Shown here: piece by piece, positions 16,871 through 32,108 of the stretch | How the letters are laid out: the number at the start of each line of letters is the position of its first letter | How positions within the stretch are numbered: position 1 is the first letter of the stretch | NCBI RefSeq assembly: GCF_039536205.1 | Contig: NZ_BAAAYL010000001.1 | Coordinates: 1,240,001-1,304,000 of the forward strand | Direction: 5' to 3' | DNA from: Streptomyces sannanensis | Lineage (GTDB): Bacteria > Actinomycetota > Actinomycetes > Streptomycetales > Streptomycetaceae | Length of the DNA: 64,000 bases | Translations under genes and position numbers: made by a program | Notes under the pieces: model-generated | What the model was told of the DNA's origin: nothing | Databases searched by the model: none | What the model saw: only the letters and a program-made list of their open reading frames with translations

Positions 16871-18415
16871 TCAGTGCTCAACGCCCTCCTCGAGCTTCTG
16901 GCCGCGCAGCAGGAACCAGGCCGCGACCGCCGTCGCCAGCAGCACCACCGCGCCCACGCCCGACGCGAGCCGCAGACCCTCGACGAACGCCTCCTGTGCC
17001 GCGCCCACGAGCTCCGCGCCGCTCCGCGCGGGCAGCGTGGCGGCGGCCTCGAACGCGCCGCCCAATGATTCGTGCGCGGCGGCCGACGCATCGGCCGGTA
17101 TGCCCGCCGGGGTCGCGAAGTCGCGGTAGACACCGGTGACGACGGAGCCGAGCAGGGCGATGCCGAGCGCCGCACCGAGTTCGTACGCCGTCTCCGAGAC
17201 CGCGGAGGCCGCGCCGGCCTGCTCCTTGGGCACGCTGGACAGGATGATGTCCGCGGTGACGGTGAAGGAGAAGCCCGCCCCGATACCGACGACCAGCAGG
17301 ATCGTGCCGAGCACCGGGTACGCGGTGGACTGGCCGATCATGGTCAGCGCGGCGAGTGCCACACCGACCGCCGCGAGTCCGCCGGCGACCACGGCGCGTA
17401 CGGAGTAGCGGCGTGCGGCCGTACCGGCGATCAGACCCGTCGCCGCCGCGCCGACAGCGGCGGGCAGTTCGGCGAGTCCCGCCTCGAGCGGCGCCCTGCC
17501 CTGGACCAGTTGCAGGAACTGGGACAGGAAGAAGACCAGGCCGGACAGACCCAGGATGGTCAGCAGATCCGCCAGCACCGCGGCGGAGAGGCCGCGGTGC
17601 CGGAACAGCCTCATGTCCAGCAGCGGCGTGGGCAGGGTCAGCTGCCTGCGTACAAAGCCGTAGAGCGCGGCCGCACCGGTCAGTGCCGTGGCCGCGGCCA
17701 CCGTGCTCGGCCCGTGTGTCGCCGTCTCCTTGACGGCGTAGACGACACCGATCATTCCGATGAGGGACAACAGGACGCTGATCAGATCCCACGGTCCGCG
17801 CCGGGGGTTCCTGGACTCGGGGATCAGCTTGGCGCCCACGACGACCAGAACGGCCATCACCGGCAGGTTGATCAGGAAGACCGAGCCCCACCAGAAGTGC
17901 TCCAGCAGGAAGCCGCCGACCATCGGACCCACGGCCGCGCCCGCGGACGCCATGGCGCCCCAGATGCCGATGGCGAGACTGCGCTCCTTCGAGTCGTGGA
18001 AGATATTGCGGATCAGCGCCAGGGTGGACGGCATCAGCGTCGCGCCGGCGACGCCGAGCAGCGCCCGGGCGAGGATCATCATCTCGGGGCTGGTGGCGTA
18101 CGCGTTGAGGACGGACACCGCGCCGAACGCGACGGCGCCGGTGAGCAACAGCTTCTTGCGGCCGATGCGGTCACCGAGGCTGCCCATGGAGACGAGCAGG
18201 CCTGCGATGACGAACGAGTAGACGTCACCGATCCAGAGGAGCTGGGTGCCGGACGGCTTCAGGTCCTCGCTGAGGAAGGGGGTCGCGAGGCCGAGTACGG
18301 TGGCGTCGACAGCCACCAGAAGTACGGCCAGGACGAGTACGACAAGTGCCGGCCAGCGGCCCGGCCGGTACACGGTGGTGTCCGCCCCGGTCGTGCGCTG
18401 GGCGGTACTGGTCAT
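16871..18415 (-). CDS. MFS drug efflux transporter, DHA2 (14-TMS) type
   Basis: 514 residues with about 14 membrane segments. Family motif A is GSLGDRIGRKKLLL, and the first helix carries VAVDATVLGLATPFL, characteristic of EmrB/QacA drug:proton antiporters. It starts three bases beyond the stop of the TetR gene on the same strand, so the two form a regulator-pump operon. A palindrome upstream of tetR is a likely operator. Probable role is export of a toxic hydrophobic compound; the substrate is not predictable. Confidence 0.92.
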   Translation of the reverse strand: MTSTAQRTTGADTTVYRPGRWPALVVLVLAVLLVAVDATVLGLATPFLSEDLKPSGTQLLWIGDVYSFVIAGLLVSMGSLGDRIGRKKLLLTGAVAFGAVSVLNAYATSPEMMILARALLGVAGATLMPSTLALIRNIFHDSKERSLAIGIWGAMASAGAAVGPMVGGFLLEHFWWGSVFLINLPVMAVLVVVGAKLIPESRNPRRGPWDLISVLLSLIGMIGVVYAVKETATHGPSTVAAATALTGAAALYGFVRRQLTLPTPLLDMRLFRHRGLSAAVLADLLTILGLSGLVFFLSQFLQLVQGRAPLEAGLAELPAAVGAAATGLIAGTAARRYSVRAVVAGGLAAVGVALAALTMIGQSTAYPVLGTILLVVGIGAGFSFTVTADIILSSVPKEQAGAASAVSETAYELGAALGIALLGSVVTGVYRDFATPAGIPADASAAAHESLGGAFEAAATLPARSGAELVGAAQEAFVEGLRLASGVGAVVLLATAVAAWFLLRGQKLEEGVEH

Positions 18416-18417
18416 TT

Positions 18418-18963
18418 CTACACGCTCCGTCGTGCTCCGCCGAGCAGCAGCTCGGCGATCATGTATGTGAAGTCCTTCTTGGCCACCCGACCGTCCATCA
18501 CGGCCCAGGCACAGCTGCCGATGAGCCCGTACAGGGCCTCGGTCAGCCAGCCCGGCGAGAGGTCGATCCGGAACTCGCCCTGCTCCTGACCGCGCCGGAA
18601 CAGCGCCGACACGCGGGCGTCCAGCCGGGCCCAGCCCTCGTTGATCTCGTCGCCCTCGAACAGCTGGTTCTCGGTGACGAGGAACGCGAGCAGCTCGGCG
18701 CCCGGCTCCATCTCGGCGATCAGCCGCCGCAGTGCGTCGTCCGCCGGGCCTTCGTCGAGCCGGGCCCGGTCGAGGGCCGCCTCGCACTCCTCGATGCCCA
18801 GGTCCTCGAGCGCCTTGACCAGCGCATCCCGCCCGGCGAAGTGCCGGTGCAGCGTCGCGCGGCCGATGCCGGCGGCTCTGGCGACCTCGTCCATGGTGGC
18901 GGTCGACTTGCGGGCGAGGAGGGCTGCAGCGGTGCGCAGCACCTGTTCACGATCCATGGCCAT
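18418..18963 (-). CDS. TetR-family transcriptional regulator
   Basis: 181 residues. The N-terminal helix-turn-helix is DEVARAAGIGRATLHRHFAG, the classic TetR form, followed by an all-helical ligand domain. It is co-transcribed with the downstream MFS pump and has an inverted repeat 18 bp upstream of its start, so autoregulation and control of the pump are likely. In-frame starts at 18978 (ATG), 18963 and 18957 are all possible; I used 18963 because it leaves the operator outside the coding sequence. Confidence 0.9.
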   Translation of the reverse strand: MAMDREQVLRTAAALLARKSTATMDEVARAAGIGRATLHRHFAGRDALVKALEDLGIEECEAALDRARLDEGPADDALRRLIAEMEPGAELLAFLVTENQLFEGDEINEGWARLDARVSALFRRGQEQGEFRIDLSPGWLTEALYGLIGSCAWAVMDGRVAKKDFTYMIAELLLGGARRSV

Positions 18964-18981
18964 GAGACGAGCATACATCAA

Positions 18982-19017: not shown

Positions 19018-20397
19018 TCACTCAGGAATCGAAGAAGGTGACTCTTCCGGTGTGCCGGAACGGTCGTCCCGGCCACGCAGGTCACCGGCTGTCTCCAGCG
19101 TCGTCCCACGGGTCTCCGGCAGCCGGACGAGGAAGACGACCGCGGCCGTGGCCTCCAGGGCGACGATGTAGTAGGCCAGCAGCAGAGGACGGTCGTGGGC
19201 GATGCTCCAGGTGGCGATGAGGGGCGCGCTGCCGCCGAAGACGGTGACGGCGAGGTTGTACGCGACGCCGACGCCCGAGGTCCGGATGCCGGTGGGGAAC
19301 AGCTCGCAGAACACCGCGGCGGCGTTTCCGTAGGTGAGTGCCAGCAGCACGTTGCCGACCACCGCGACCAGCAGGTAGCCGGCCGGACTCGGATGCTGCA
19401 GCAGGCGCAGCATGGGGTACGCGAGGACGGCGAAGCCCAGGGCCTCGGCGATGATGAGAGGCCGTCGGCCGGTCTTCCGGTCCGAGACCGCACCGACCAG
19501 CGGCAGTACGAGCACGAAGGCCGCCAGCGCGACGGCGTTCAGGGCCAGACCGGTCTTGAGCGGGAAACCGGAGACCAGGTTCGCGTAGGTGGGCAGGAAG
19601 ACCTGCCAGGTGAAGAACGTGACCTGGCTGAACTGAATCACGATCACCAGGAGCAGGCTTCGCCGGTGCAGTGTGAGGGCTGTCCACAGCGGCCTGCGCT
19701 CGACCCGGCCCGAGGCCTGCAGCCCGGTGAAGAGCGGACTTTCCGGTACGGCCTGTCGCAGGTGGACACCGTAGAGGCAGAGGACCGCGCCGATCAGGAA
19801 CGGCACCCGCCACCCCCAGTCGGCCAGCATCTGCTTGGGGAGCACGGTGGTGAGCACCGTCGAGACCAGTGTGGCGGCCAGGATGCCGAGACCGGCGGTC
19901 ATGTACTGGGCGGCGCCGGCCGAGGCCCGGCGATCGGGCGGGGCGTGTTCGACGATGAACGCGGAGGCGGCCTGGAACTCGCCGGAGTTGGAGACGTTCT
20001 GAGTGGCGCGGCCGAGCACCAGGCAGACCGGCGCCAGCGCCCCGATGGTGCGGTAGGAGGGCGACAGACCGATGAGCAGCAGGCCCGATCCCATGATGAA
20101 CAGGCTGAGCGAGAGCAGTTTGCGACGGCCGTGCCGATCCCCGTAGGGCGACAACAGCATCGCGGCGACGGGGCGCACCACGAAGGCGACGCCCACCACG
20201 AGCCCGTAGGTGTAGAGCAGCGCGAACGCCTTGTTGCTGGTGGGGAAGAACTGCTGGGCGAAGACCGGGGCGAGCAGGGAGTAGATCGTCGCGTCGTAGT
20301 ACTCGATGAGGTTGCCGATCGCCCCCGCCCGGATCGCCTTGCGGGAGCGGGGGGACGCGGTGGAGAGGTCCTGCGGGGGCGTGAAGGGCGCGGACAA
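19018..20397 (-). CDS. MFS transporter, metabolite:H+ symporter (MHS) type
   Basis: 459 residues with 12 predicted membrane helices. The N-terminal sequence AGAIGNLIEYYDATIYSLLA and the loop GDRHGRRKLL are typical of the MHS subfamily (ShiA, ProP, citrate and dicarboxylate carriers). It is the last gene of the 29-19 kb operon, 40 bp after the P450 gene. In that context it could import a precursor, such as shikimate-like acids handled by ShiA relatives, or export the product. Substrate is inference. Confidence 0.88.
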   Translation of the reverse strand: MSAPFTPPQDLSTASPRSRKAIRAGAIGNLIEYYDATIYSLLAPVFAQQFFPTSNKAFALLYTYGLVVGVAFVVRPVAAMLLSPYGDRHGRRKLLSLSLFIMGSGLLLIGLSPSYRTIGALAPVCLVLGRATQNVSNSGEFQAASAFIVEHAPPDRRASAGAAQYMTAGLGILAATLVSTVLTTVLPKQMLADWGWRVPFLIGAVLCLYGVHLRQAVPESPLFTGLQASGRVERRPLWTALTLHRRSLLLVIVIQFSQVTFFTWQVFLPTYANLVSGFPLKTGLALNAVALAAFVLVLPLVGAVSDRKTGRRPLIIAEALGFAVLAYPMLRLLQHPSPAGYLLVAVVGNVLLALTYGNAAAVFCELFPTGIRTSGVGVAYNLAVTVFGGSAPLIATWSIAHDRPLLLAYYIVALEATAAVVFLVRLPETRGTTLETAGDLRGRDDRSGTPEESPSSIPE

Positions 20398-20437
20398 TAC
20401 GGCTCCAGGGGTGCGGGGGCGTCAGGCCGCGCGCGGT

Positions 20438-21637
20438 TCACCAGGCGACGGGCAGCGCAGCCATTCCGTGCAGGCGTGGTGCGTCCTTCCAGACGACGTC
20501 CGGCTCGGCCGCGGCGAGCCGTAGCTCCGGAAAGCGGGAGAGCAGGGAGGAGAGAGCGACCTGGAACTCGGTCCTGACCAGGTGACGCGCCAGGCAGCGG
20601 TGGATCCCGGCCCCGAAGGCGAGGTGGGGGTTCTCGGGGCGCCCCAGATCGAGACGGTCGGGATCGGCGAAGACGGCGGGGTCCCGGTTGGCGGCGTTGA
20701 CCGAGACCACCACGGGATCACCGGCGCGCATGGTCACCCCGGACAGGGTGATGTCCTCCGTGGCGATGCGCAGGTGACCGTCCTTCTGCACCAGATGCCA
20801 GCGCAGCATCTCCTCCGCCGCCACGGGCACCGATTCCGGGTGACGCCGAAGCCGTGCCCACTGGCCGGGGTGGCGCAGCAGGTTCTCCACGGCGGCGGTG
20901 ACCAGGGAGGTCTGTGTGGTGTGGCCGATGAAGACGATGGCGATGCCGAGCCCGATCAGCTCCGGCTCGCTCAGTGCGCCCTGCTCGTCGCGGGCTTCGA
21001 CCAGGGCACTGAGCAGGTCGTCGCCCGGCGAAGCCCGGCGCTCGTCCATCGCCCGGGCGATGTAGTCCCGCATCTGCCGCTGAGCCTCGACGATCTCGTC
21101 AGCAGGCCCTGCGCCGGTGGCCGTGGCGATCAGCGCCAGGATGGGGTCGACGTCCTCCTCCGGCAGCCCCATCGCGGCGCACATCACCAGGTGCGGCAGC
21201 GGCGCGGTGACAGCGGACACCAGGTCGGCGGGGGCGCCCGCCTTGGCCATCTCGTCCAGCAGCCGGTCCACCACCTGCTGGACGAGCGGCCTCAGCCGCT
21301 CGACCTGGTGCGCGCTGAAGGCCAGGGCCACGAGCTTGCGCAGCCGGGCGTGGTCGGGCGGATCGCTGTGCCTCATATGGACGACGTCCGGCGGCTTCGA
21401 CGGTACGGAGGTCAGGCTCGGCAGGCCGGGCATGTCCGTGCCGGCCGAACTGAACCGCTGGTCGCTGAGGACCTGCCGGACGTCCTGGTGCCTCGTCACC
21501 AGCCAGGCGTGGTGTCCGCTGGGCAGCACGACGCGGGAGACCGGCTCCTCCTGCCGCAGCCGGGCGAGCTGGGAGTACAGCTCGGGCGGGTCGGTGAAGG
21601 GGAACGGGAAGGGGCTCGCGGCGTGGTCGTCTGCCAT
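20438..21637 (-). CDS. Cytochrome P450 with non-canonical I-helix
   Basis: 399 residues, a soluble bacterial P450. The heme-binding loop is FGAGIHRCLARHL with the ligand Cys, the ExxR motif is EEMLR, and the K-helix region is intact. The oxygen-activation motif, usually AGxET or AGxDT, reads FIGHTTQT here, so the acidic residue before the conserved Thr is replaced by Thr. The segment SDPPDHARLRKLVALAFS is canonical. Part of the minus-strand operon, 20 bp after the flavoprotein gene. The unusual I-helix may mean altered proton delivery. No ferredoxin gene is adjacent. Confidence 0.92.
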   Translation of the reverse strand: MADDHAASPFPFPFTDPPELYSQLARLRQEEPVSRVVLPSGHHAWLVTRHQDVRQVLSDQRFSSAGTDMPGLPSLTSVPSKPPDVVHMRHSDPPDHARLRKLVALAFSAHQVERLRPLVQQVVDRLLDEMAKAGAPADLVSAVTAPLPHLVMCAAMGLPEEDVDPILALIATATGAGPADEIVEAQRQMRDYIARAMDERRASPGDDLLSALVEARDEQGALSEPELIGLGIAIVFIGHTTQTSLVTAAVENLLRHPGQWARLRRHPESVPVAAEEMLRWHLVQKDGHLRIATEDITLSGVTMRAGDPVVVSVNAANRDPAVFADPDRLDLGRPENPHLAFGAGIHRCLARHLVRTEFQVALSSLLSRFPELRLAAAEPDVVWKDAPRLHGMAALPVAW

Positions 21638-21657
21638 CTCGTGGATCCCTTTCGGGT

Positions 21658-22869
21658 TCAGGGCTTGTGGAACGACGGGTCGTGTGCGAGGCCCAGCGCC
21701 GCCCGGCCCACGGAGGCCAGGATGTGGTCGTCGTTGTCGTGCCGCTGGTAGAAGGTCAGGTCGCGCAGGATGCGTTCCACCGGTGCGGGCCGGACCAGGC
21801 TGCGGGCGCCGCAGGCGCGGATGCAGTGGTGCAGGGTCTCCTCGGCCAGATGCTCGATCACATGCCGGGCCCGGCTGCCGGCGATCCGGGCCTCGCCGAT
21901 CCGTCCCTCGTCCCACAGGGCGGCCACATGACGCAGCCACAGCCGGGCGGTGTCGACGTTGACCGCCATGCTCCCGACCCGCTGCTGGACATGCGGGTCA
22001 CCGGTCTTGCCCTGGTGCTCCAGATACCCGAGGGCGTACCGGTAGGCGGCCTCGGCAGCCCCCAGGAAGCTGGCGGCGTAGTGCGGGACGAAGGCACTCT
22101 GCCAGTGACCGGCGAGATAGCTGCCGGGCTCGCCGATGAGCTGGTCGTGGGGGATGAAGGTGTCGTCGAAGCGCACGACATGGCTTGCGGTGCCGCGCAT
22201 CCCGACCGGATCCCACCAGGAGGTGTCCACGCTCAGGCTGGGATCCGTCAGATCACAGGCCAGCATGAGCAGCCCGTCGGCGGCCCCCGAGGCGGAGTGC
22301 CGGGCGCCGCCGGGGCCGGCCGGGTCGACGAGCAGGATCGCCCAGCGGGCCCCGGTGGCGCTGGTGGCGAAGGCCTTGGTGCCGTTGAGGATCCAGCCGC
22401 CTTCGGCCGCTGCCACCGTGGTGCCGAACGTGCGGACCTCGCCGGGCTTGGGGGCCTGGGGCTCGCCGCTCCAGGCCACCCAGATCTCCCCGCGCTCGAC
22501 GACGCCTTCGAACCAGCGCCGCTGCTGCTGCTCGTTGCCGAGGGCGTCGATCAGCACCAGTGAGTTGGCGTGGCCTTCCCAGCAGCGGGCCAGCGACAGA
22601 TCGGCCTCGGCCAGGCGTGTGGTCATCTCCCACAGCGGCAGTGTGTTGCGCTGCTGCGGGCCGAAGCCGAGGCCGCCGTACGGCCGGGGCACCGCCGCGC
22701 CCAGCAGACCTGCGGCGAACAGGTCGTCGAAGTCCTCGGTGGGGAAGGCGGCCGAGCGGTCATAGCCGTCGGCCCGGCCGGCGAAGACATCGTGGGCCAG
22801 GACGTCGGTCTTCTGAAGGGCTGTCGGTTCGCCGGCGACGGTACGGCCGGACGCGAGGTTGGTGATCAT
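21658..22869 (-). CDS. Acyl-CoA dehydrogenase-like flavoprotein, catalytic Glu apparently replaced
   Basis: 403 residues with the ACAD fold: an N-terminal helical part with GLLGAAVPRPYGGLG, a middle beta domain (GWILNGTKAFATSATGA), and a C-terminal helical bundle. In dehydrogenases the C-terminal catalytic motif is YEGT; the matching position here reads FYQRHDNDDH, with no Glu. This resembles flavin-dependent monooxygenases of the DszC-like type more than true dehydrogenases, an inference from manual alignment. Its start overlaps the stop of the preceding gene (ATGA). Likely an oxygenating or hydroxylating enzyme of the operon's pathway. Confidence 0.85.
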   Translation of the reverse strand: MITNLASGRTVAGEPTALQKTDVLAHDVFAGRADGYDRSAAFPTEDFDDLFAAGLLGAAVPRPYGGLGFGPQQRNTLPLWEMTTRLAEADLSLARCWEGHANSLVLIDALGNEQQQRRWFEGVVERGEIWVAWSGEPQAPKPGEVRTFGTTVAAAEGGWILNGTKAFATSATGARWAILLVDPAGPGGARHSASGAADGLLMLACDLTDPSLSVDTSWWDPVGMRGTASHVVRFDDTFIPHDQLIGEPGSYLAGHWQSAFVPHYAASFLGAAEAAYRYALGYLEHQGKTGDPHVQQRVGSMAVNVDTARLWLRHVAALWDEGRIGEARIAGSRARHVIEHLAEETLHHCIRACGARSLVRPAPVERILRDLTFYQRHDNDDHILASVGRAALGLAHDPSFHKP

Positions 22870-23297
22870 GCCTTCGGCGGTCCTTCGGGACGGTAGAAGT
22901 GGTTGCGGTACGTCGCGTTGGCCTCCGGATCCTCCGGGTGGGAGGTGTAGACGTCGATCACCAGCAGGCCCCGGTTCAGGTAGCCGCAGAGGAAGACCTC
23001 CCGGGAGCGTGTGCCCGGGAGGCGCGTGCCCGCCGTGAAGAAGCCGAAGATCTCGTCGCTGTCGGCCGAGCGTGCCAGTGGAGTGGCCTCGATGGGGGAC
23101 CACTCCCCTTGCCCCTCCTCGGCGTGGGTGAACCGCAGCCACAGCCGTCCCCCCTCGAGCTCTGCCTCCGCCACGGCGATGCCGGTCGCGGGCTCGAAGT
23201 TGACCCACCGTCCGGTGATCGGCAGGACGTCGAAGGTCACCGGCGCCTGTGCCGCGCCGAACCTGTCCCGTTCGCGGCTGATACCGGGTGCTGTCAT
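22866..23297 (-). CDS. Small protein of unknown function, relative of its neighbour
   Basis: 143 residues, soluble and rich in aromatic residues. The pattern is GRWVN near residue 30, EWSPIEATPL in the middle and YRNHFYR near the C-terminus. The adjacent 133-residue protein shows the same order (GTWLN, DWGEVPAVLF, LTREFFHR), so the two look like diverged duplicates. A compact beta-barrel such as a lipocalin-like fold is plausible but not shown. It overlaps both neighbours by four bases, so it is translationally coupled in the operon. No catalytic motif recognised. Confidence 0.8.
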   Translation of the reverse strand: MTAPGISRERDRFGAAQAPVTFDVLPITGRWVNFEPATGIAVAEAELEGGRLWLRFTHAEEGQGEWSPIEATPLARSADSDEIFGFFTAGTRLPGTRSREVFLCGYLNRGLLVIDVYTSHPEDPEANATYRNHFYRPEGPPKA

Positions 23298-23695
23298 GAC
23301 TGCCCCCCGATCCGGTGGAAGAACTCACGGGTCAGGTAGTCGGCGCGCCCACTGCCGTCCCGGAAGGCGGTGGAGACGACGGTGGCCAGAATCCCGAACT
23401 TGTGGGTACCGGCGATCACCGTGCGCAGGAAGCCGAGGTCGAACTCCGCCGTGAACGCCGGACCGACCCTGGGGTCGGCGCCCGCCCCGAACAGGACGGC
23501 GGGCACCTCGCCCCAGTCGCGTTCGTCGGGGCTGCCCGTACCGAAGGCCCGTACCCGGAGTCCGCCGTCGTGCTCGGTCACGGCGATGCGCAGGATGCCT
23601 CCGGACGCTCCGTGGTCGGTATTGAGCCAGGTGCCGACCAGTGGCTTCGGGTCGAGCTCCGATGATGTGGCGATCTTGGGATGTCCCGTCATCAC
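23294..23695 (-). CDS. Small protein of unknown function, relative of its neighbour
   Basis: 133 residues. GTWLNTDHGASGG near the N-terminus, DWGEVPAVLFGAG in the middle and YLTREFFHR at the end parallel the next gene. No signal peptide or membrane segment. Two consecutive ATG codons are available as start. Starts 20 bp after the AroD/AroE-like fusion gene. The two paralogues could form a heterodimer that binds or shapes a pathway intermediate; this is inference from their coupling. Confidence 0.8.
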   Translation of the reverse strand: MMTGHPKIATSSELDPKPLVGTWLNTDHGASGGILRIAVTEHDGGLRVRAFGTGSPDERDWGEVPAVLFGAGADPRVGPAFTAEFDLGFLRTVIAGTHKFGILATVVSTAFRDGSGRADYLTREFFHRIGGQS

Positions 23696-23715
23696 GCCTC
23701 CCTGGGGTGGTGGGA

Positions 23716-25215
23716 TCAGATCGGTTCGGCGGGGCAGAGCGTGCTGTCGTGCCCCGAGGCGGCCCGGATCAGGGTGCGGGCCGTGCCCGCGGGCATCTCG
23801 TACCCGGTCAGCAGCCTGAACTGCTCGTGTACCTCTATGAGCAGCACCTCCCGTCCGTCGATGGCGGGCAGCCCGCGGGCGCGGGCCGCGGCCATCAGCT
23901 CGGTGGGCTTCTCCCCGTATACCAGTTCCAGCACGGCGGTCCCCGGGTCGGCGGCGGCGACCGGGAACGGGGGGTGGTCGGCCAGCGGAGTGGCATGCAC
24001 CAGCAGGGAGTGCCCCCGCACGGAGAATCGGGAGAGCGGCACGAAGGACAGGCCCGTCATCCTGGCCGCCCGCAGGCCACGGTCCGGGCTGCGATTCACC
24101 AGCGTCACCCGGGCACCGGCCTGACGCAGCGCCAGGGCGACGGCCCTGCCGGCGCCCCCGCAGCCCACGACGGCCGCGCTGCGCCCGGCCGGGTCGAGCC
24201 CGGCCGCGGCCAGGGCGCCCAGCACGCCCGCGATGTCCGTGGTGTCGGCCCGCCAGCGGCCGTCCGCCGTATACAGCACGTTCGCCGCCCCGGCTTCGTG
24301 TGCGGCCGGGGACGCCTCGTCGGCCAGGGCCAGGGCGTCCTCCTTGTGCGGGGCGATCACCGTCAGTCCGCGCAGCGGCAGACCTGCCCGCACCCCGAGC
24401 GCCTGTGTCGTCCGCAGCAGGCGGGGCACCGAGTCGGTCGGGAACGGCAGGTAGAGCGCGCGCAACCCCAGCTTGCGCAGCGCAGTGTTGTGCAGCCGGG
24501 GAGAGAGCGAGCGGCCGGGGGACACTCCGGCGATGCCGTAGAGGCAGTCCAGCTCCGGCAGCGCGGGCAGACCGTAGTCCATGACGAGCTGACGCAGGCT
24601 CGGCATTCCGGCCGGTCCGGACTCGCCGACGCGGCCGAACATCACGGGTGCTCCCAGCCAGGGGGCCAGGACGCGGGTCCAGATCCCGGCCGGGCCGGAG
24701 CCGAAAGCTGTCACATCGGAGCGTCCGAGAGCGCTGAGCATCAGCGGTGCCGATACGCCTGCCGCCCTACCGGGGGCCGGCTCGAGCAGATACAGCGCCG
24801 CCGGAACCTGCGCCATCGAGCCGAAGACCCGGCGCAGCCCGTCGGGATCGGTCTCCGGGCCGTGCCACGAGATGCGCCGCTGCTCCGGCGGGACGCCGGC
24901 CAGTACGTCCGGCGTCAGGTCATGGGGCCACTCGAGGTCGACCAGGTCGTAACTCCCGGCGGCGCGTACCAGCCTGACGGACCGCTCCGCCGTCCGGACG
25001 TGCTGACGGCCGCCGTGCCGACGGGTGCGCAGGCAGTAGGTCAACGACCCGGTGAAGTGCCTCCGCAGCCGGTGCGGGTCCGGATCACCGAGCAGGTCGG
25101 CGCGGACCTCCAGGCCGTCGGCGATCGGATCGATACCGCTCAGCCGGTCACTGCCGAGGTCGTCCGGAGAGGACAGGACGGCCACCAGCTCCGCCCGCCG
25201 CCCGCCTGGTCTCAT
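23716..25215 (-). CDS. Fused dehydroquinase-like and shikimate dehydrogenase-like protein
   Basis: 499 residues. Residues about 8-215 resemble type I 3-dehydroquinate dehydratase: GLEVRADLL (the E-x-R-x-D motif), the Arg in CLRTRRHGG, DLVDLEWP, and the catalytic-type His in ISWHG. The position of the Schiff-base lysine (PKIALMP in E. coli AroD) reads PAALYLLEP, so the lysine appears to be missing. Residues about 225-499 resemble AroE: GRSLSPRLHN for the substrate, LTVIAPHKEDA with the catalytic Lys, GCGGAGRAVALAL for NADP, and DTTD. The fusion order is that of plant DHQ-SDH. Starts with ATG overlapping the nitroreductase stop. A secondary-metabolic role on a quinate- or shikimate-like ring is likely; the reaction is unknown. 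Confidence 0.85.
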   Translation of the reverse strand: MRPGGRRAELVAVLSSPDDLGSDRLSGIDPIADGLEVRADLLGDPDPHRLRRHFTGSLTYCLRTRRHGGRQHVRTAERSVRLVRAAGSYDLVDLEWPHDLTPDVLAGVPPEQRRISWHGPETDPDGLRRVFGSMAQVPAALYLLEPAPGRAAGVSAPLMLSALGRSDVTAFGSGPAGIWTRVLAPWLGAPVMFGRVGESGPAGMPSLRQLVMDYGLPALPELDCLYGIAGVSPGRSLSPRLHNTALRKLGLRALYLPFPTDSVPRLLRTTQALGVRAGLPLRGLTVIAPHKEDALALADEASPAAHEAGAANVLYTADGRWRADTTDIAGVLGALAAAGLDPAGRSAAVVGCGGAGRAVALALRQAGARVTLVNRSPDRGLRAARMTGLSFVPLSRFSVRGHSLLVHATPLADHPPFPVAAADPGTAVLELVYGEKPTELMAAARARGLPAIDGREVLLIEVHEQFRLLTGYEMPAGTARTLIRAASGHDSTLCPAEPI

Positions 25216-25886
25216 GTGTGCCACTGGGTGTACTCCTCCAGGCGGGCCCTCGGCGGAACGAAGCGATTGACGGGGGCGGCCTCGTCCGGATATCCGGCAG
25301 AGACGGTGCAGGCGATCAGGCGGTCCTCGGGGATCCCGAGCTCCTTGCGCAGGATGTCGGCGTAGCGCGCGACGCTGAACTGCGGGCAGCTGCCGAGGCC
25401 CCGGGCGACCAGGCCCAGCATCATGTTCTGCAGAAAGCAGCCCAGCTCCAGGAAGGTGCCCGGTACGGCGTTGGCCGGCAGGTGGCAGACCAACGCGACG
25501 GGTGCGCCGTAGAAGCCGAGGTTGTCGCGCAGATGGGCACGCCGTGCCAGGTCGTCCGCGACGGCGACGCCCTTGGCGCGCAGCACGCCCGTTCCGGCCG
25601 ACCGGGCCCGTCGCTCGGCCGCCGGGTCGAGCGCGGGCGGGCGGTTGCGGTAGTCCGGCGACACGGGCTCGCCCCGGTCGAACGCCTCCCGCAGCCTGCG
25701 CACCAATGCCTCCAGACTTCGGCCGGTCACAACCGTGACCTGCCACAGCTGTGTGTTGCGGTTGGACGGTGCATGGCCGGCTGCCCGCAGTACGTCGGCC
25801 AGTAGACCGTGCGGGACGGCGTTGTCCAGGAAGGCGCGCTTGCAGTGGCGGTCCATGATCACTTGCAGGGAGTCATCCCCCGTCAT
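25212..25886 (-). CDS. Nitroreductase-family flavoprotein
   Basis: 224 residues. The N-terminal pattern MDRHCKRAFLDNAV and HAPSNRNTQLWQV, which bind FMN, and the C-terminal LGSCPQFSVARYADILRKELGIP place it in the FMN nitroreductase superfamily. It could reduce a quinone, enone or nitro group, or oxidise an intermediate with FMN. It ends in an ATGA overlap with the AroD/AroE-like fusion and begins eight bases after the phosphatase fusion gene. Function in the pathway is not known. Confidence 0.85.
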   Translation of the reverse strand: MTGDDSLQVIMDRHCKRAFLDNAVPHGLLADVLRAAGHAPSNRNTQLWQVTVVTGRSLEALVRRLREAFDRGEPVSPDYRNRPPALDPAAERRARSAGTGVLRAKGVAVADDLARRAHLRDNLGFYGAPVALVCHLPANAVPGTFLELGCFLQNMMLGLVARGLGSCPQFSVARYADILRKELGIPEDRLIACTVSAGYPDEAAPVNRFVPPRARLEEYTQWHT

Positions 25887-25893
25887 CGGAGCC

Positions 25894-27351
25894 TCACCCG
25901 CTGTCCGGTGCGAGCGCGCTCAGGGCCGTTTGCTCGTGCAGGAGGGTGCGGACGGACTGCTGGATGTGCTGCGCGCATGCCCGGTGGACCTCGGCCGACC
26001 GGCCCGCGGGATCGGGTATGTCCCTGGCCGGGTCCAGGCAGAACACCCGTCCGCCGACCTCCGGCACCAGGGCGATCACCTGGTCGCGCTGGGCGCCGGT
26101 CATGCAGTAGATCGCCGTGCTCCTCCTGCAGAGGCCCGGGGTGACGGGGCGGGCCCGGTGGGTACGGGCCGCCGCACGGTGGTAGCCCAGTTCGGCGAGG
26201 GACGTGCGGGCGGCCCGGGTCATCGCCGCTCCGGGCCGGGTGACCGCGACACCGCCGCTGGCGACGCGCAGCCGGGGCGTACTCCACCTCGTTCGCGCCT
26301 GGGCCAGTTCGGACCGGGCGATGCTCTCGGCCATGGCCGAGCGAGAGGTGTTGCCACCGCAGACGAAAAGCAGGAGCCGGCGGCGCCCTGCCCGGCTGAG
26401 CGTCGGGAACGACAGCGCCGCCACCGCGCAGACCACGAAGCTCAGTGCGGTCAGTTGCGCGGCCCCCGGGGCGGCGAGTCCGGCCAGCCACGCCAGGGCG
26501 AAGGAGGCGGCCAGACCGGAGAGCAGGCTGGCACAGCGGTTCGCCGGGACGCACCAGCTGTACTCACGACGATCGAGGTAGATCAGGGTGCCGAAGACGA
26601 AGAGCACCTCGTAGGCCACTCCGATCGCCGCCGCGGCCGCCGCTTCGGGCGTTCCGAGGAAGGTGGTGAAGCCCGCACGCAGCTGGGGATGGCCGGCCAG
26701 GGCCGCCACGGCCAGGAGCAGCACTTGGCATACCGGGGCGGCGGCATGCTCCTCGACGAAGTAGCGCCGGTCGGTCTCCCTGTTCCCGGTCTTGGCCACC
26801 CGGCTCATGATCTCGAAACGGCCCAGATACCCGGCCAGGTAGACGGCGACACTCAGCGCCGCGCCGATCGTGAGGTGATAGGTCGTCACATCGGCGAGGG
26901 TCACCGCCACCGCTACCAGGCTGAATCCGACGGCCACCCAGGACGAGGCCCGGACACGACGGCGCCGGGTCGCGTCGACCACGGGAGAGAGGATCAGTAC
27001 GCCACCGCGCATCAGCAGAAGCATGAAAAGGATGGAGACGCCGGCGAAGGTGAAGTTGAGTGTGGTGGTGGCGATGATGAGGGCCGTGAAGAACCCGGCG
27101 GCCCACATGTGCTGTGCCGGGAAGCGCATATAACGGCCGAGCACTTCGCGCCGCCCTGCGTATCGCCGCCACCAACCGGAGAGGCCAAGGAAGACGGGCA
27201 TCACGAGGAGTTGGCCGATGGCGGCGGCCGGCAGCAGGACGAGTCCGCTGTCAGGCGCGTCGGTCCCCGGCAGAACTCCGCTGGAGAGCGCCTTCACCAG
27301 CATTGTGTAGGGGATGTAGGAGAGAAAGTAACCGAGCGCGAGCCATCCCAT
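25894..27351 (-). CDS. Polytopic membrane protein fused to a low-molecular-weight phosphatase
   Basis: 485 residues. The first 320 contain about nine or ten hydrophobic segments resembling drug/metabolite (DMT/EamA-like) transporters. A C-terminal cytosolic domain (about 322-485) is a low-molecular-weight protein-tyrosine-phosphatase/arsenate-reductase fold: the P-loop LFVCGGNTSRSAMAE has the C-x5-R-S catalytic pattern, and VFCLDPARDIPDP supplies the conserved Asp-Pro general acid. Such a fusion is unusual. It could transport a phosphorylated compound and dephosphorylate it. Near the head of the accessory operon. Confidence 0.82.
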   Translation of the reverse strand: MGWLALGYFLSYIPYTMLVKALSSGVLPGTDAPDSGLVLLPAAAIGQLLVMPVFLGLSGWWRRYAGRREVLGRYMRFPAQHMWAAGFFTALIIATTTLNFTFAGVSILFMLLLMRGGVLILSPVVDATRRRRVRASSWVAVGFSLVAVAVTLADVTTYHLTIGAALSVAVYLAGYLGRFEIMSRVAKTGNRETDRRYFVEEHAAAPVCQVLLLAVAALAGHPQLRAGFTTFLGTPEAAAAAAIGVAYEVLFVFGTLIYLDRREYSWCVPANRCASLLSGLAASFALAWLAGLAAPGAAQLTALSFVVCAVAALSFPTLSRAGRRRLLLFVCGGNTSRSAMAESIARSELAQARTRWSTPRLRVASGGVAVTRPGAAMTRAARTSLAELGYHRAAARTHRARPVTPGLCRRSTAIYCMTGAQRDQVIALVPEVGGRVFCLDPARDIPDPAGRSAEVHRACAQHIQQSVRTLLHEQTALSALAPDSG

Positions 27352-27561
27352 GCCGCCCCACCCCTGCCCACGTCACCGTGCGAATGAACCCGTCAGCCGG
27401 GATCTTGAATTCACGTCGGAAAGGAGAGATTTCCGGTCGGCCGATCAGCACGCCGGAATTCTCTCAGTGTGCACGTGGCCCGGGGAACCGACAAGGGGCG
27501 CCCGGTCGCACAGAACGCCGGTTTCCGGTCATTCCTCCAGGGCCTTGCACAGCCGTGCGGT

Positions 27562-27618
27562 TCACTTGTTGGAGCGCATGTTCTCGATGCAACTGGAGGG
27601 ATCGCAGCGGCATTTCAC
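27562..27618 (-). CDS. Candidate 18-residue Cys-rich peptide
   Basis: VKCRCDPSSCIENMRSNK, beginning with a GTG that overlaps the stop codon of the upstream MFS gene (GTGA). Three Cys in ten residues and a charged tail are notable. A GGAGGG lies 15 bases before the GTG, too far for a strong site, but coupling to MFS termination could suffice. It could be a leader peptide, a peptide substrate for the operon's enzymes, or chance. Confidence 0.3.
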   Translation of the reverse strand: MKCRCDPSSCIENMRSNK

Positions 27619-29066
27619 CCGGGCAATTGCGAACCCTCCGCCCGGCGCCTCTCGGCAAGGACCCGGCCCAGCAGCCCGAGCAGCACGGCGGTGCAACTGA
27701 TCGCGCTCACACTGAAAACGGCGACATACCCCTCCTCCGTCGGGAAACCGTCGGAGGACGCGTAGGCGTCGAGGATCGCGCCGGTCGCGGCGCTGCCGAT
27801 CGCGCTGCCCGCGACCCGCAGGACATGGTTGAAGCTGGTCGCAGTGCCGAGATCGTCGCCCGGGACCGCGGTATGGATGAGGGTGGGCACGACGGCCCAG
27901 ATGATGCTGCTGCCCACGCCGAACGCCAGCATGGCGAGAAGCAGATGCCACAGCCGGTCGTGGTGGACGACGAGCCCGGCATTGGCGCCGGCCACCAGGG
28001 CTCCTCCCAGGGGCAGCATCCCGTGGTGTCCCATCCGCGCGGTGAGCCGGCGTGTCAGCCGGCCGGCCAGCTGGCTTCCGGCCGACAGCGGGAGCATCAC
28101 ACACCCCGCGGTGAAGACCGAGAGGCCGAGCCCGTAACCCGAACCCGGGGGCACCTGGGCGAGCATGCCGATCGCGGAGTAGCCGACGAACGTCGTGGCG
28201 CCCAGCACGACGGCTGTGATATTGGCCAGCAGTACATCGGGGAGCAGCAGCAGGTCGGGGCGGATCAGCGGCTGGGCGGCACGCCGCTCCCACCACGCCC
28301 ATGCCGGGATCAGCGCAGCGGACCCGGCCAGCGGGCCCAGCGCGGCCACGGAGGTCCAGCCCCACGAGGAGCCCTTGCTCACCACGAGGAGCAGACACGC
28401 CAGTCCGGCCGTGAGAAGAACGGCACCGACCGGGTCGGCGCGCTTGAACCCGGACGGCGCGCCCGCGTCCGCGCCCCGGTCGGCGGCCGGACCCTTGTCC
28501 GGGGGCAGGATCAGCAGGACTCCTGCGACGGCCGGCGCGACGAAGGCCACGGCGAACCAGAACGCCCAGTGGTAGTCGAGGCAGTCGGCGATCAGACCGG
28601 TCAGCGGATAGCTGATCCCGGAGCCGGTGGCCGCGGCCACCGTGAGCACGACGATACCCTCCGGCACCCTGGCCGGGGCCAGATGGCGGTGCGCCAGGGC
28701 GATCGTCATCGGGAGCATCCCACAGGCCGGGCCCTGCAGCGCCCGGCCGATCAGCAGCTGCGGAAGGCCACCGGCCATCGCCGCGAGAACGGAACCCGAG
28801 ACCACGAGAACGAGCGCCGCCAACAACGCCCGCCTACTGCGGCAGCCGTCCGCCAGCCGGCCCAGGACCGGTGTGGTCACCACCCCGGCCAGCAGGTTCA
28901 CGGTCAGCACCCACTGGGCTGTACTCACCGGTACGTGATGGGTCCTGGCGATGGAGGGAACCAGCAGCCCCCCGAGCGAACTGATCACGGTGTTGGACAG
29001 TCCGCAATAGACCAGCAACAGCAATACGGCATTGGGCCGTTTCAGCACCCTGCCACCCATGTCCAC
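27615..29066 (-). CDS. MFS efflux transporter, DHA2 type
   Basis: 483 residues with about 14 membrane segments. The first helix region is followed by VSTAQWVLTVNLLAGVVTTPVLGRLAD (positions about 47-73) and the motif-C-like APARVPEGIVVLTVAAATGSGISYP. A probable exporter for the product of the downstream operon. It lies 263 bp upstream of the phosphatase-fusion gene on the same strand, so it is either the first gene of that operon or separately transcribed. Divergent from the DyP peroxidase gene, sharing an AT-rich promoter region. Confidence 0.88.
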   Translation of the reverse strand: MDMGGRVLKRPNAVLLLLVYCGLSNTVISSLGGLLVPSIARTHHVPVSTAQWVLTVNLLAGVVTTPVLGRLADGCRSRRALLAALVLVVSGSVLAAMAGGLPQLLIGRALQGPACGMLPMTIALAHRHLAPARVPEGIVVLTVAAATGSGISYPLTGLIADCLDYHWAFWFAVAFVAPAVAGVLLILPPDKGPAADRGADAGAPSGFKRADPVGAVLLTAGLACLLLVVSKGSSWGWTSVAALGPLAGSAALIPAWAWWERRAAQPLIRPDLLLLPDVLLANITAVVLGATTFVGYSAIGMLAQVPPGSGYGLGLSVFTAGCVMLPLSAGSQLAGRLTRRLTARMGHHGMLPLGGALVAGANAGLVVHHDRLWHLLLAMLAFGVGSSIIWAVVPTLIHTAVPGDDLGTATSFNHVLRVAGSAIGSAATGAILDAYASSDGFPTEEGYVAVFSVSAISCTAVLLGLLGRVLAERRRAEGSQLPG

Positions 29067-29291: not shown

Positions 29292-31226
29292 GTGACCACA
29301 GCCACCGACCCGAAGGAACTGCTGCGCATCAACAGCGATTTGTATCTGCGCGAGAACACCGAGATCCAGGGTGATGTGCTCGCCGGGTTCAAGAAGGACC
29401 ACATGCAACTGCTGTTCCTCCGGTTCGAGGACCAGCAGATGACGCGCACGTGGCTGAAGCAGTTGCGGCCGCTCATCGCCACCACCAAGCAGGTGGCGAC
29501 CTTCAACAGGGAGTTCTCCAAGGCGCGTTCGTACTCCGGCGGTGACGACCCGAGAAACCTCAACGCCCTGTGGTACAGCATCAGTTTCACCTACCACGGT
29601 CTGAGGTTCATCACCGGAACGAACCCGCTTCCCGCCACCACCGACAGCAGCGTCGACGGCCCGCACAAGGCGTTCGTGCAGGGCCCGGCACGGCGGGCCG
29701 AGGCGCTCGGCGACACGGGCCCGAACCACCCCCACAACTGGCTGTTCGGGAACTTCGGCGACGGAGACATCCATGCGGTCCTCACCCTCGCCGCCGACCA
29801 GGCCACCGTCCTGCGTGCCACCCTCGGCGACGTCCGCCAGGACCTCGCCCGCGCCAGGATCGTGACCATCTACGAGCAGGAGGGCGCGACCCTCGAAGGA
29901 GCCCGCCGCGGCAGGGAGCACTTCGGCTTCAAGGACGGCGTCAGCGAGCCGGCGATCAAGCACCTCGACGAGCCCGACTCCCAGAACCCGGTGTACGAGA
30001 AGGGCCACCCCGGCACCATCCTCATCAACGCCGGAGAATTCGTCGTCGGACTCGAACGGGAAAGGCCGCATCCGCTGCCCTACCCCGAGTGGGCGACCCA
30101 CGGCTCCTTCCAGGTGGTGCGCCGGCTGGCTCAGGACGTCCCCGGCTGGTGGGCGGGCGTGGCCGAGCAGCTCAAGGTGCTGAAGGAGGCGAAGGCCGCG
30201 CCCGATCACGCCACGACCGAATGGCTGGCCGCTCGCCTGGTCGGGCGCTGGCGCACGGGGACGCCCGTGGCGAAGTGCCCGCACGCCGATATGTCGTACA
30301 ACGCGGAATCGTCGAACGACAACGACATCTCGTTCGCCGACGACCCCGAGGGCACGACCACTCCCCTGTGGTCCCATCTCCGGAAAACCAACCCCCGTGA
30401 CGGCTTCCCCGACGAGAGGAACCCGGGGAAGACCCTCCCGGACACGAGGTTCAACCACCGCCGCATCATGCGCCGCGGCATTCCGTACGGCCTGCCCTTC
30501 GACCCGTCGGCCTCGGCGCTCAACGGCCCGGACGCGCCCCGTGGTCTGGTCTTCGTCTCCTATCAGGCCGACCTCTTCCGGCAGTTCGAGTTCATCCAGA
30601 AGGACTGGATGAACGACGAGATGTTCCCCAAGCCGAACCTCAACCCCCAGAACGACAAGAAGAAGCCCAAGCCCGGCGAGTCCGTCACCGGCGCCGACCC
30701 CGTCGCGGGCGAGGAAACCGAGGTCGCATGGCAGCGGGGAAACGGTCAGCCCCCGGTCAAGCTGCGCTTCTCCCAGTTCGTACGGACCGAGGGCGCGGTC
30801 TACGCCTTCATGCCGTCGATCTCGGTCCTGGACCAGCTCGCGGAGGGCCGGATGAACACCAACATGGTCGTCGCCGGCCGCACGATCTTCACGGTCGCGA
30901 GCTTCGACCACACCGAACGGGACTCCGTCGACTCGGGCACGGTCCGGCTGGTCCTGCAGCGCGACGGCAACCTCGTGGTCGTCGACAAGCAGAACAGGGT
31001 CCGCTGGGCCGCGCTGAGGAGCGCCTCCCCCGCCGGCGACAAGACCCAGGCGAGGTTCGAGGACGGCGAGCTCTTCCTCATCGACCCCGCGAAGCCGCAG
31101 ACGAAGCTCTGGTCCTCCGGGACCGGCGGCAACCCGGACGCCAAGCTGGTCGTCCAGATGGACGGAAACGTGGTGATCTACAAACAGGGCAGGGCGATCT
31201 GGCACACCAACACGGTGGGGCGCTGA
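29292..31226 (+). CDS. DyP-type heme peroxidase with C-terminal bulb-type lectin domain
   Basis: 644 residues. The peroxidase part (about 1-520) has the family Asp motif HFGFKDGVSEPAI (GxxDG) and the basic distal segment NHRRIMRRGIPYG. The C-terminal 110 residues carry repeats of the mannose-binding (bulb) lectin type: RLVLQRDGNLVVVDKQN and VVQMDGNVVIYKQGRAIW. A sugar-binding peroxidase that could act on glycans or a polysaccharide-bound substrate is suggested, but no Sec or Tat signal is visible, so export is unclear. ATG at 29292 follows GGAGG. Convergent with the methyltransferase gene. Confidence 0.9.
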   Translation: MTTATDPKELLRINSDLYLRENTEIQGDVLAGFKKDHMQLLFLRFEDQQMTRTWLKQLRPLIATTKQVATFNREFSKARSYSGGDDPRNLNALWYSISFTYHGLRFITGTNPLPATTDSSVDGPHKAFVQGPARRAEALGDTGPNHPHNWLFGNFGDGDIHAVLTLAADQATVLRATLGDVRQDLARARIVTIYEQEGATLEGARRGREHFGFKDGVSEPAIKHLDEPDSQNPVYEKGHPGTILINAGEFVVGLERERPHPLPYPEWATHGSFQVVRRLAQDVPGWWAGVAEQLKVLKEAKAAPDHATTEWLAARLVGRWRTGTPVAKCPHADMSYNAESSNDNDISFADDPEGTTTPLWSHLRKTNPRDGFPDERNPGKTLPDTRFNHRRIMRRGIPYGLPFDPSASALNGPDAPRGLVFVSYQADLFRQFEFIQKDWMNDEMFPKPNLNPQNDKKKPKPGESVTGADPVAGEETEVAWQRGNGQPPVKLRFSQFVRTEGAVYAFMPSISVLDQLAEGRMNTNMVVAGRTIFTVASFDHTERDSVDSGTVRLVLQRDGNLVVVDKQNRVRWAALRSASPAGDKTQARFEDGELFLIDPAKPQTKLWSSGTGGNPDAKLVVQMDGNVVIYKQGRAIWHTNTVGR

Positions 31227-31244: not shown

Positions 31245-32108
31245 CTATGACGACGCCCCGCCGACGAGACAGCAGTGCTGCCGCTCCGGCTCCACCGGGG
31301 CGCGGACCTCGGCGGCGGGGAACAGCGACCGGGCGTGCTCCACGCTCCAGAACACCTCGTACCGTCCGCACGCGGGGACCGGGGTGCGGGCGTCGAAGTG
31401 CACCGTGTGATCCACGATGGCGCACCAGGAGGCGCCGCACGCCCGGTCGGTCACGGGGTCCTGATGCTCCGGCACGGCCACGCCGCCGTATGCGGTGCGG
31501 CCGGGCCAGGAACCCAGCCGCCACCGGACGTTGGGCGTCCCCCGGCCGGCCGGCGGCGACCAGGCCGGGTCCATGAAGGTGAAGGCCAGGACTCCGTCGT
31601 CGGCCAGCATCGACCGCAGCCCGCCGACCAGTTCGACGGCCTCGTCGTCGGACAGATGGGTGAAGACGGAGTACGCGAGGACGTAGTCGAAACGCGCTCC
31701 GAGGCCGGGCAGCGGAAGCCGGTGGACGCCTTCCGGATTGAACTGGGGGTTGTACCGGTCGTAATGCACCCAGTGGGCCTGCGGCCGACGTCGCCGCCCC
31801 TCCGCGACCGCGGCCCGGGAGACGTCCAGACACCAGTAGTCCGACGGCTGGATCCGGTCTCCGGCCCCGTCCAGGAACGCGCCGGCGTTGCCACCGAAGT
31901 CCAGCACCTTCCGGCCCGCCCAGTCCGGGTGGCCGAGCTGGGCGTCGAAGTAGCGGAACTGGCCGGTCTTCGCGGAGATGAAGGTCACTTGCCACACCAC
32001 CTGATCCGGGTCGGGGTGGGCCGTCGGGCGGATGACTTCTCCGAATGACCCGTTTTCGTACGGCCCGTGTGATGGACGATAACCGCATGGGCCGGCGGAG
32101 GACGCCAT
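31245..32108 (-). CDS. Class I SAM-dependent methyltransferase
   Basis: 287 residues. The SAM motif VLDFGGNAGAFLDGA near residue 70 and the downstream CLDVSRAAV acidic strand identify the class I fold, with SVFTHLSDDE as a motif IV-like segment. There is no clear ribosome site at the ATG at 32108, so the true start may be internal, before VIRPTAHPDPDQVVW. Substrate unknown. It is transcribed toward the DyP gene. Confidence 0.75.
   Translation of the reverse strand: MASSAGPCGYRPSHGPYENGSFGEVIRPTAHPDPDQVVWQVTFISAKTGQFRYFDAQLGHPDWAGRKVLDFGGNAGAFLDGAGDRIQPSDYWCLDVSRAAVAEGRRRRPQAHWVHYDRYNPQFNPEGVHRLPLPGLGARFDYVLAYSVFTHLSDDEAVELVGGLRSMLADDGVLAFTFMDPAWSPPAGRGTPNVRWRLGSWPGRTAYGGVAVPEHQDPVTDRACGASWCAIVDHTVHFDARTPVPACGRYEVFWSVEHARSLFPAAEVRAPVEPERQHCCLVGGASS

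Follow-up and report, generated by a model that had tools for sequence, protein, structure and literature searches.

The operon analyzed here, nine minus-strand genes (A to I, 5' to 3'; Table 1) at positions 19018-29066 of a 64,000-nucleotide stretch of Streptomyces sannanensis DNA (the window; C1:1240001-1304000 of a 7.8-Mb genome, GC ~70%), was compared with the closest described systems. Type I 3-dehydroquinate dehydratases rely on a Schiff-base lysine, with an ExR motif, two further Arg and a catalytic His as functional residues, while shikimate dehydrogenases use a catalytic Lys-Asp pair and a conserved C-terminal Gln that contacts the substrate. The plant bifunctional dehydroquinate dehydratase-shikimate dehydrogenase (DHQ-SDH; structure 2gpt, model NF006802) contains the same two domains in the same order as protein D, although D lacks the Schiff-base Lys, has Glu for the conserved Gln and falls far under the NF006802 cut-off. 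Low-molecular-weight protein tyrosine phosphatases (LMW-PTPs), in which the Asp of a DP loop is the general acid, share with protein B the C(X)5R(S/T) loop (CGGNTxRS, with Cys and Arg kept in 14/14 loci); the nearest solved relative of its phosphatase domain is YwlE (4pic). B differs from these enzymes in its fusion to a membrane domain without a Pfam match and, at 8/14 loci, in its acid residue. Protein C matches the nitroreductase NfnB (2wzv) and 7dp1 almost along its full length, and is distinguished by its place between B and D in eight of the ten loci where it is intact.

Two further systems concern oxidative enzymes. Acyl-CoA dehydrogenases (ACADs) carry their catalytic Glu within a YEGT motif. 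Group D flavin monooxygenases have the ACAD fold and receive reduced flavin from a separate reductase, as described in PMC5481743. Protein G resembles members of this group (TdsC/DszC, DnmZ, a nitrososynthase) in having the ACAD fold without the usual ACAD base motif; it differs in having no characterized close relative, and ordinary ACADs also rank high among its matches. In S. lividans, the DyP-type peroxidase DtpA, a twin-arginine translocation (Tat) substrate, is required for maturation of GlxA under low copper (PMC4736821). A GlxA-like copper oxidase gene likewise adjoins the DyP gene in five of the six DyP-bearing loci studied here; the window is the exception, with a DyP gene alone whose product has no signal peptide by eye. 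By sequence, all parts of the operon are assigned to known families, except E, F and the membrane part of B. The initial annotation had recognized no described cluster with this set, and no description of the cluster, the combination, D or a lysine-free AroD-like fusion was found in the literature searched; curated cluster collections lay outside that search, which may therefore have missed a known product.

The favored interpretation, to which we assign a probability of roughly 45%, is a specialized-metabolism operon of repurposed enzymes that moves between genomes. On the best reading, its core is B-(C)-D-(E-F)-G, with the P450 (H), a methyltransferase, the DyP-type peroxidase (with a GlxA-like oxidase) and two major facilitator superfamily (MFS) transporters (A, I) as optional parts. 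The P450, the methyltransferase and the exporter-like MFS protein would represent usual tailoring and export functions, which we infer to favor a metabolite as the product.

Conserved gene order is the first line of evidence. The comparison covers 14 loci (the window, L009, L010, L016-L019 and L058-L064), with about 20 kb examined per locus for gene counts and wider flanks for four loci. D was the search query, so its own presence at all 14 is by selection. Of the 13 loci outside the window, 11 come from the same genus or from hosts named Streptomyces and two from a second genus within the family; a decayed copy was also found. The order B-C-D-E-F-G recurs in ten of the 14 loci, including the window, with C degraded in two of these ten. 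The remaining four read B-D-E-F-G (L018) and B-D-G (L062), or have D between A and I (L016, L017). The core is co-directional in 12 loci, D having moved in two. Chance assembly was ruled out on this basis, since the loci that depart from the common order keep subsets of it or a moved D. The initial annotation had taken conserved gene order as the test of a coherent operon, and the order is indeed found elsewhere. C is degraded in L059 and L060 and absent from L018 and L062, the last of which also lacks E and F. Because B, D and G form the smallest set seen (L062), these three probably carry the essential function. A frame comparison of the first seven loci showed that the gene set extends beyond the nine genes to the DyP-type peroxidase and the methyltransferase, up to position 32108. 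The case for one functional unit is strong.

The set is rare, and its members tend to be found together. D was detected in 5 of 392 genomes in a genus sample, in 8 of 394 in a family sample (two of them from another genus) and, among 396 genomes of a phylum sample, only in the window's own genome; these samples, searched at thresholds of 1e-30, 1e-60 and 1e-50, each include that genome and may overlap. In the GTDB contig collection, 85 stretches fitted a pattern and two encoded a relative of D, giving two loci; named hosts of D relatives are Streptomyces adelaidensis CAP261 and Streptomyces sp. AC555_RSS877. In reverse searches, an E/F profile matched 4 of 295 genomes, all four D-positive, and G (E<=1e-60) matched 2 of 199, both D-positive. 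B (E<=1e-25) matched 3 of 199, of which two were D-positive and the third, G090, carries the decayed cluster. In the genome that harbors L018 (G175), no match to the DyP-type peroxidase or the methyltransferase was found genome-wide, and the best relative of C, 37% identical, is located elsewhere.

Residue-level analysis of D argues for repurposing. The D profile aligns both domains with Arabidopsis DHQ-SDH (2gpt) over ~450 positions (E 2.8e-36), and D scores 78 of 598 bits against NF006802, the bifunctional NCBIfam model. The counterpart of the DIVKIA motif of 2gpt, which contains the Schiff-base lysine, reads YLL, and Leu occupies the lysine position in 14/14 sequences. The AroD-like domain has no lysine at all in nine of the 14, and no position holds a conserved lysine across the set. 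The dehydroquinase GQ motif is GM in 12 sequences and GT in two. E36, R38, R63 and R181 are invariant, and the His is kept in 11/14, with Gln in the other three. The AroE-like part retains Asp and Asn in all 14 sequences and Lys in 12/14, with Arg in L063 and L064, while Glu461 aligns in all 14 with the Gln of the plant and bacterial enzymes (2gpt, 2hk9). Given these residues, D is, by sequence, no working type I dehydroquinase; an oxidoreductase role is possible, as is a shikimate-like ring as its substrate. A separate AroE-like gene is present in the same genome at C1:1184406.

Across the first seven loci, conservation is highest in the flavoprotein G, with a mean column identity of 87%, vs 81% for B and 69% for D; the value for C, from six sequences, is 85%. 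Its best PDB matches are the ACAD type 2 domain proteins 5z8t (E 2e-25) and 5gj7, followed by ordinary ACADs, TdsC, DszC, DnmZ and a nitrososynthase (3mxl). In all 14 sequences, HDN occupies the expected site of the ACAD base motif, a placement made by eye, the alignment to human short-chain acyl-CoA dehydrogenase stopping just short of that enzyme's base motif. By sequence, G has the fold family that group D shares with ACADs; C, a possible reductase for it, is missing or degraded in 4/14 loci. The closest structures to C are 7dp1 (E 5e-42), 3gr3 and 2wzv (E 2e-35). At L059 (10560-11039) and L060 (8503-8982), C is shortened and has a ratio of nonsynonymous to synonymous substitution rates (dN/dS) of 0.94, near neutral, so it seems dispensable at these two loci.

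The P450 H keeps the heme Cys motif and ExxR in 8/8 sequences. P450s typically carry an acid-alcohol pair in the I-helix; in H the acid is missing in 8/8 and the Thr is kept in the window and L064, with the motif placed by eye. The first part of B (residues ~1-315) contains several hydrophobic segments and gave no Pfam match up to E 10, although the search filters drop most weak matches; a structural model of B (predicted local distance difference test, pLDDT, 43.6) was too poor for use. E and F are paralogs with 20-27% identity, tblastn with E recovering F in several loci, and neither has a significant match in Pfam, NCBIfam or PDB sequences. The model of F is a seven-strand all-beta fold (mean pLDDT 64, predicted template modeling score 0.57) with weak lipocalin and fatty-acid-binding protein matches.

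Substitution rates, distances between loci and a decayed copy bear on the history of the operon. In the close pairs L016/L017, L059/L060, L063/L064 and L058/L061, none of which involves the window, a dN/dS of 0.15-0.37 shows purifying selection on B, D and G. The AroD-like domain alone gives 0.24-0.43 in the same pairs, which argues that this domain is kept, and E and F evolve faster (0.36-0.88). Inter-locus distances agree among B, E, F and G (r 0.77-0.92 over 78-91 locus pairs), and agreement of the D distances with these is lower (r 0.64-0.74); DyP distances were disregarded because the proteins are cut at locus ends (L016, L017), and C distances include two degraded copies. D of the window is nearest to that of L016/L017 (74-75%), whereas B of the window is not nearest to those loci, which suggests that D has been exchanged. 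At L016 (8065-12622) and L017 (7761-12321), D is relocated to a place between the MFS genes A and I, and it is closer to its counterpart in the window than the other core proteins are to theirs, which points to block exchange.

In G090, at L039 (7600-14300), what remains of the decayed cluster is A, B (its frame broken close to the start), the C-terminal 85 residues of G and a broken I, with an ISAzo13-type transposase between A and B; no match to C, D, E, F or H was found in the surrounding 20 kb. The natural deletion strain proposed in the initial annotation for metabolite comparison thus exists in this decayed form. Genes for a pyridine nucleotide-disulphide oxidoreductase and an ArsR-family regulator lie near the L039 cluster, neighbors looked at in this locus only; a connection to arsenic or mercury was considered on their account and set aside. 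The loci differ in neighbors and genomic position (e.g., 0.19 Mb on a 9.66-Mb contig in G905). Together, the variable accessory genes, scattered positions and decayed copy fit an operon moving between genomes.

Table 1. Genes of the operon and associated features, in window coordinates
Feature	Position	Strand	Family evidence	Loci
A: MFS transporter, DHA2/EmrB-like exporter	27615..29066	-	Pfam MFS_1 7e-35; efflux_EmrB under cut-off	4/14
B: membrane domain (~1-315) + LMW-PTP domain (328-471) fusion	25894..27351	-	LMWPc 4e-15	14/14
C: NfnB-like nitroreductase family protein	25212..25886	-	Nitroreductase 8e-25	intact in 10/14
D: DHquinase_I-like (1-222) + shikimate dehydrogenase-like (~225-480) fusion	23716..25215	-	Pfam/NCBIfam DHquinase_I + Shikimate_dh_N	14/14
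E: small protein, family undescribed, paralogous to F	23294..23695	-		13/14
F: small protein of the family of E; weak calycin/lipocalin-like all-beta model	22866..23297	-		13/14
G: ACAD-fold flavoprotein, HDN replacing the usual base motif	21658..22869	-	Pfam Acyl-CoA_dh	14/14
H: cytochrome P450, acid missing from the I-helix acid-alcohol pair	20438..21637	-	p450 8e-26	8/14
I: MFS protein, metabolite/H+ symporter family, TTG start	19018..20397	-	TIGR00883 9e-95, under cut-off	6/14
DyP-type peroxidase, C-terminal stretch weakly B-lectin-like	29292..31226	+	TIGR01413 113 bits, above cut-off	6/14
Methyltransferase-domain protein	31245..32108	-	Methyltransf_12 3e-12	6/14

The layout of the operon agrees largely with the initial annotation, which listed nine or ten minus-strand frames; nine genes were recovered, and the gene names are matched by Pfam and NCBIfam; the starts of D, G and H were corrected to those in Table 1. 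The frames, first described as mostly overlapping, do overlap at three junctions (C-D, E-F and F-G, 4 bp each), whereas the other junctions are close (B-C 7 bp, D-E 20 bp, G-H 20 bp, H-I 40 bp) and A stands 263 bp apart from B. The frames contain no inner stops, their GC content at third codon positions is 0.86-0.91, and no TTA codon occurs in the window genes.

DyP-type peroxidases carry a GxxDG motif and a proximal His, and the protein encoded here has GFKDGVS and HLRKTNPR in 4/4 sequences (window, L009, L010, L019). It matches Pfam DyP_N and Dyp_perox_C above cut-off and B_lectin under cut-off; the family scans began at residue 14 of this protein and the genome search at residue 51. A second DyP gene lies outside the cluster at ~844 kb in the same genome (L040, 6000-9750), directly beside a GlxA-like gene. 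The methyltransferase gene directly follows H in five other loci.

Outside the gene set, a TetR-family regulator beside another MFS gene directly adjoins the operon (16871-18981), and none of the other 13 loci has a match to this TetR gene at a threshold of E 1e-10. A class III aminotransferase and a thioester-reductase-like short-chain dehydrogenase/reductase are encoded near the cluster in L063 (13931-16311), with the same pair in L064. From 32730, the window continues with housekeeping genes for isocitrate dehydrogenase (idh) and argininosuccinate lyase. A simple insertion next to idh was considered and rejected: idh was found at comparable similarity in 12 of 20 other genomes, and in ten of these the flanks on the idh side were free of cluster genes and of the tested genes from the window's left flank, the exceptions being one ABC protein and two P450s with 29-37% identity. 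This marks the region as variable, and none of the ten flanks demonstrates an empty site.

For the favored metabolic operon, the following sequence of roles is proposed. D would reduce a ring ketone with NAD(P)H, while the half that resembles AroD would have lost dehydroquinate dehydration and serve instead as a binding or scaffold domain, or catalyze lysine-independent chemistry. G would be a group-D-type flavin monooxygenase or oxidase. At loci that have C, this protein may supply G with reduced flavin or act as the reductase of an N-oxide or nitro group. As calycin-like barrels, E and F could bind or cyclize the intermediate, and H and the methyltransferase would decorate that intermediate. 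B may move the product through the membrane and, at loci that retain its acid residue, act on a phosphate ester. The narrower proposal of an undescribed pathway, in which lysine-free AroD-like and Glu-altered AroE-like domains, an acid-less P450 and a new calycin-like pair jointly perform family-new chemistry on a ring precursor and a membrane-tethered phosphatase finishes or exports the product, is doubtful.

Several observations weigh against a specialized-metabolism operon. The precursor is a guess, because the conserved set includes no polyketide synthase (PKS), nonribosomal peptide synthetase (NRPS), ligase or terpene synthase, and no regulator was found in it either; the absence of TTA codons from the window genes counts on the same side. 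The steps would differ among loci, since C is missing or degraded in four, E and F are missing in one and the P450 is missing in six. The acid residue of B is Asp in 6/14 loci, the window included, and Asn in 8/14. The calycin-like assignment of F depends on a weak model, whose best Foldseek match is a lipocalin at E 0.029, with none at 0.001. A PcaR/PobR-like regulator, under its model cut-off, lies near L061. Finally, among the homologues of XiaF, a group D monooxygenase, considered in PMC5481743, most serve the degradation of xenobiotics.

These last two points count in favor of a catabolic or detoxification operon, in which I would import a cyclic acid, G and C would oxidize and reduce it, D would reduce a ring ketone and A would export waste. 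As a member of the metabolite/H+ symporter family, I matches shikimate and tricarballylate transporter models, in every case under cut-off, and a formyl-CoA transferase and other genes of CoA metabolism lie near L018. Conversely, I was not found near eight of the 14 loci nor A near ten, the cross-locus frame comparison, in which not every neighbor was identified, revealed no further enzyme recurring with the core, and a methyltransferase and a P450 suit decoration better. We regard this alternative as rather unlikely.

The altered catalytic residues raise a second alternative, namely a regulatory or protective rather than biosynthetic operon, in which D and B would be pseudoenzymes acting as sensors or binders of a ligand that is shikimate-type or phosphorylated. 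Catalytic residues are changed in both proteins, and the altered domain of D is under purifying selection in the pairs tested. This alternative appears improbable in view of the retained AroE-like Asp (14) and Lys (12), the Cys and Arg of the B P-loop, present throughout, and the conservation of the flavoprotein G, the highest among the first seven loci. The initial annotation had offered a quinate/shikimate-type metabolite as one reading, and a functional two-domain AroD/AroE enzyme providing or modifying quinate or shikimate for such a product would account for the alignment of D to 2gpt across both domains and for the AroE-like Lys, Asp and Asn. That proposal is weakened by the replacement of the Schiff-base Lys by Leu and of the AroE-like Gln by Glu in every sequence, the lysine-free domain in nine, the Met (12) or Thr (2) at the GQ Gln and the Lys-to-Arg change in two, and we consider it very improbable. 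A cluster for a ribosomally synthesized and post-translationally modified peptide (RiPP) with an overlooked precursor has next to no likelihood, although RiPP clusters can also include nitroreductases, P450s and methyltransferases and H matches the RiPP P450 model ApyO at 47 of 525 bits, far under cut-off. In the 700 bp upstream of B, the region scanned, each of the best 25 frames of at least 18 residues, ranked by match count, had matches in at most three other loci.

If the operon does make a small molecule, it would represent a compact pathway without the core enzymes and precursors (PKS, NRPS, RiPP precursor) by which such clusters are usually found. In that case it would also assign a function to the new small-protein family of E and F, and would show what the type I dehydroquinase fold is capable of without its defining lysine.

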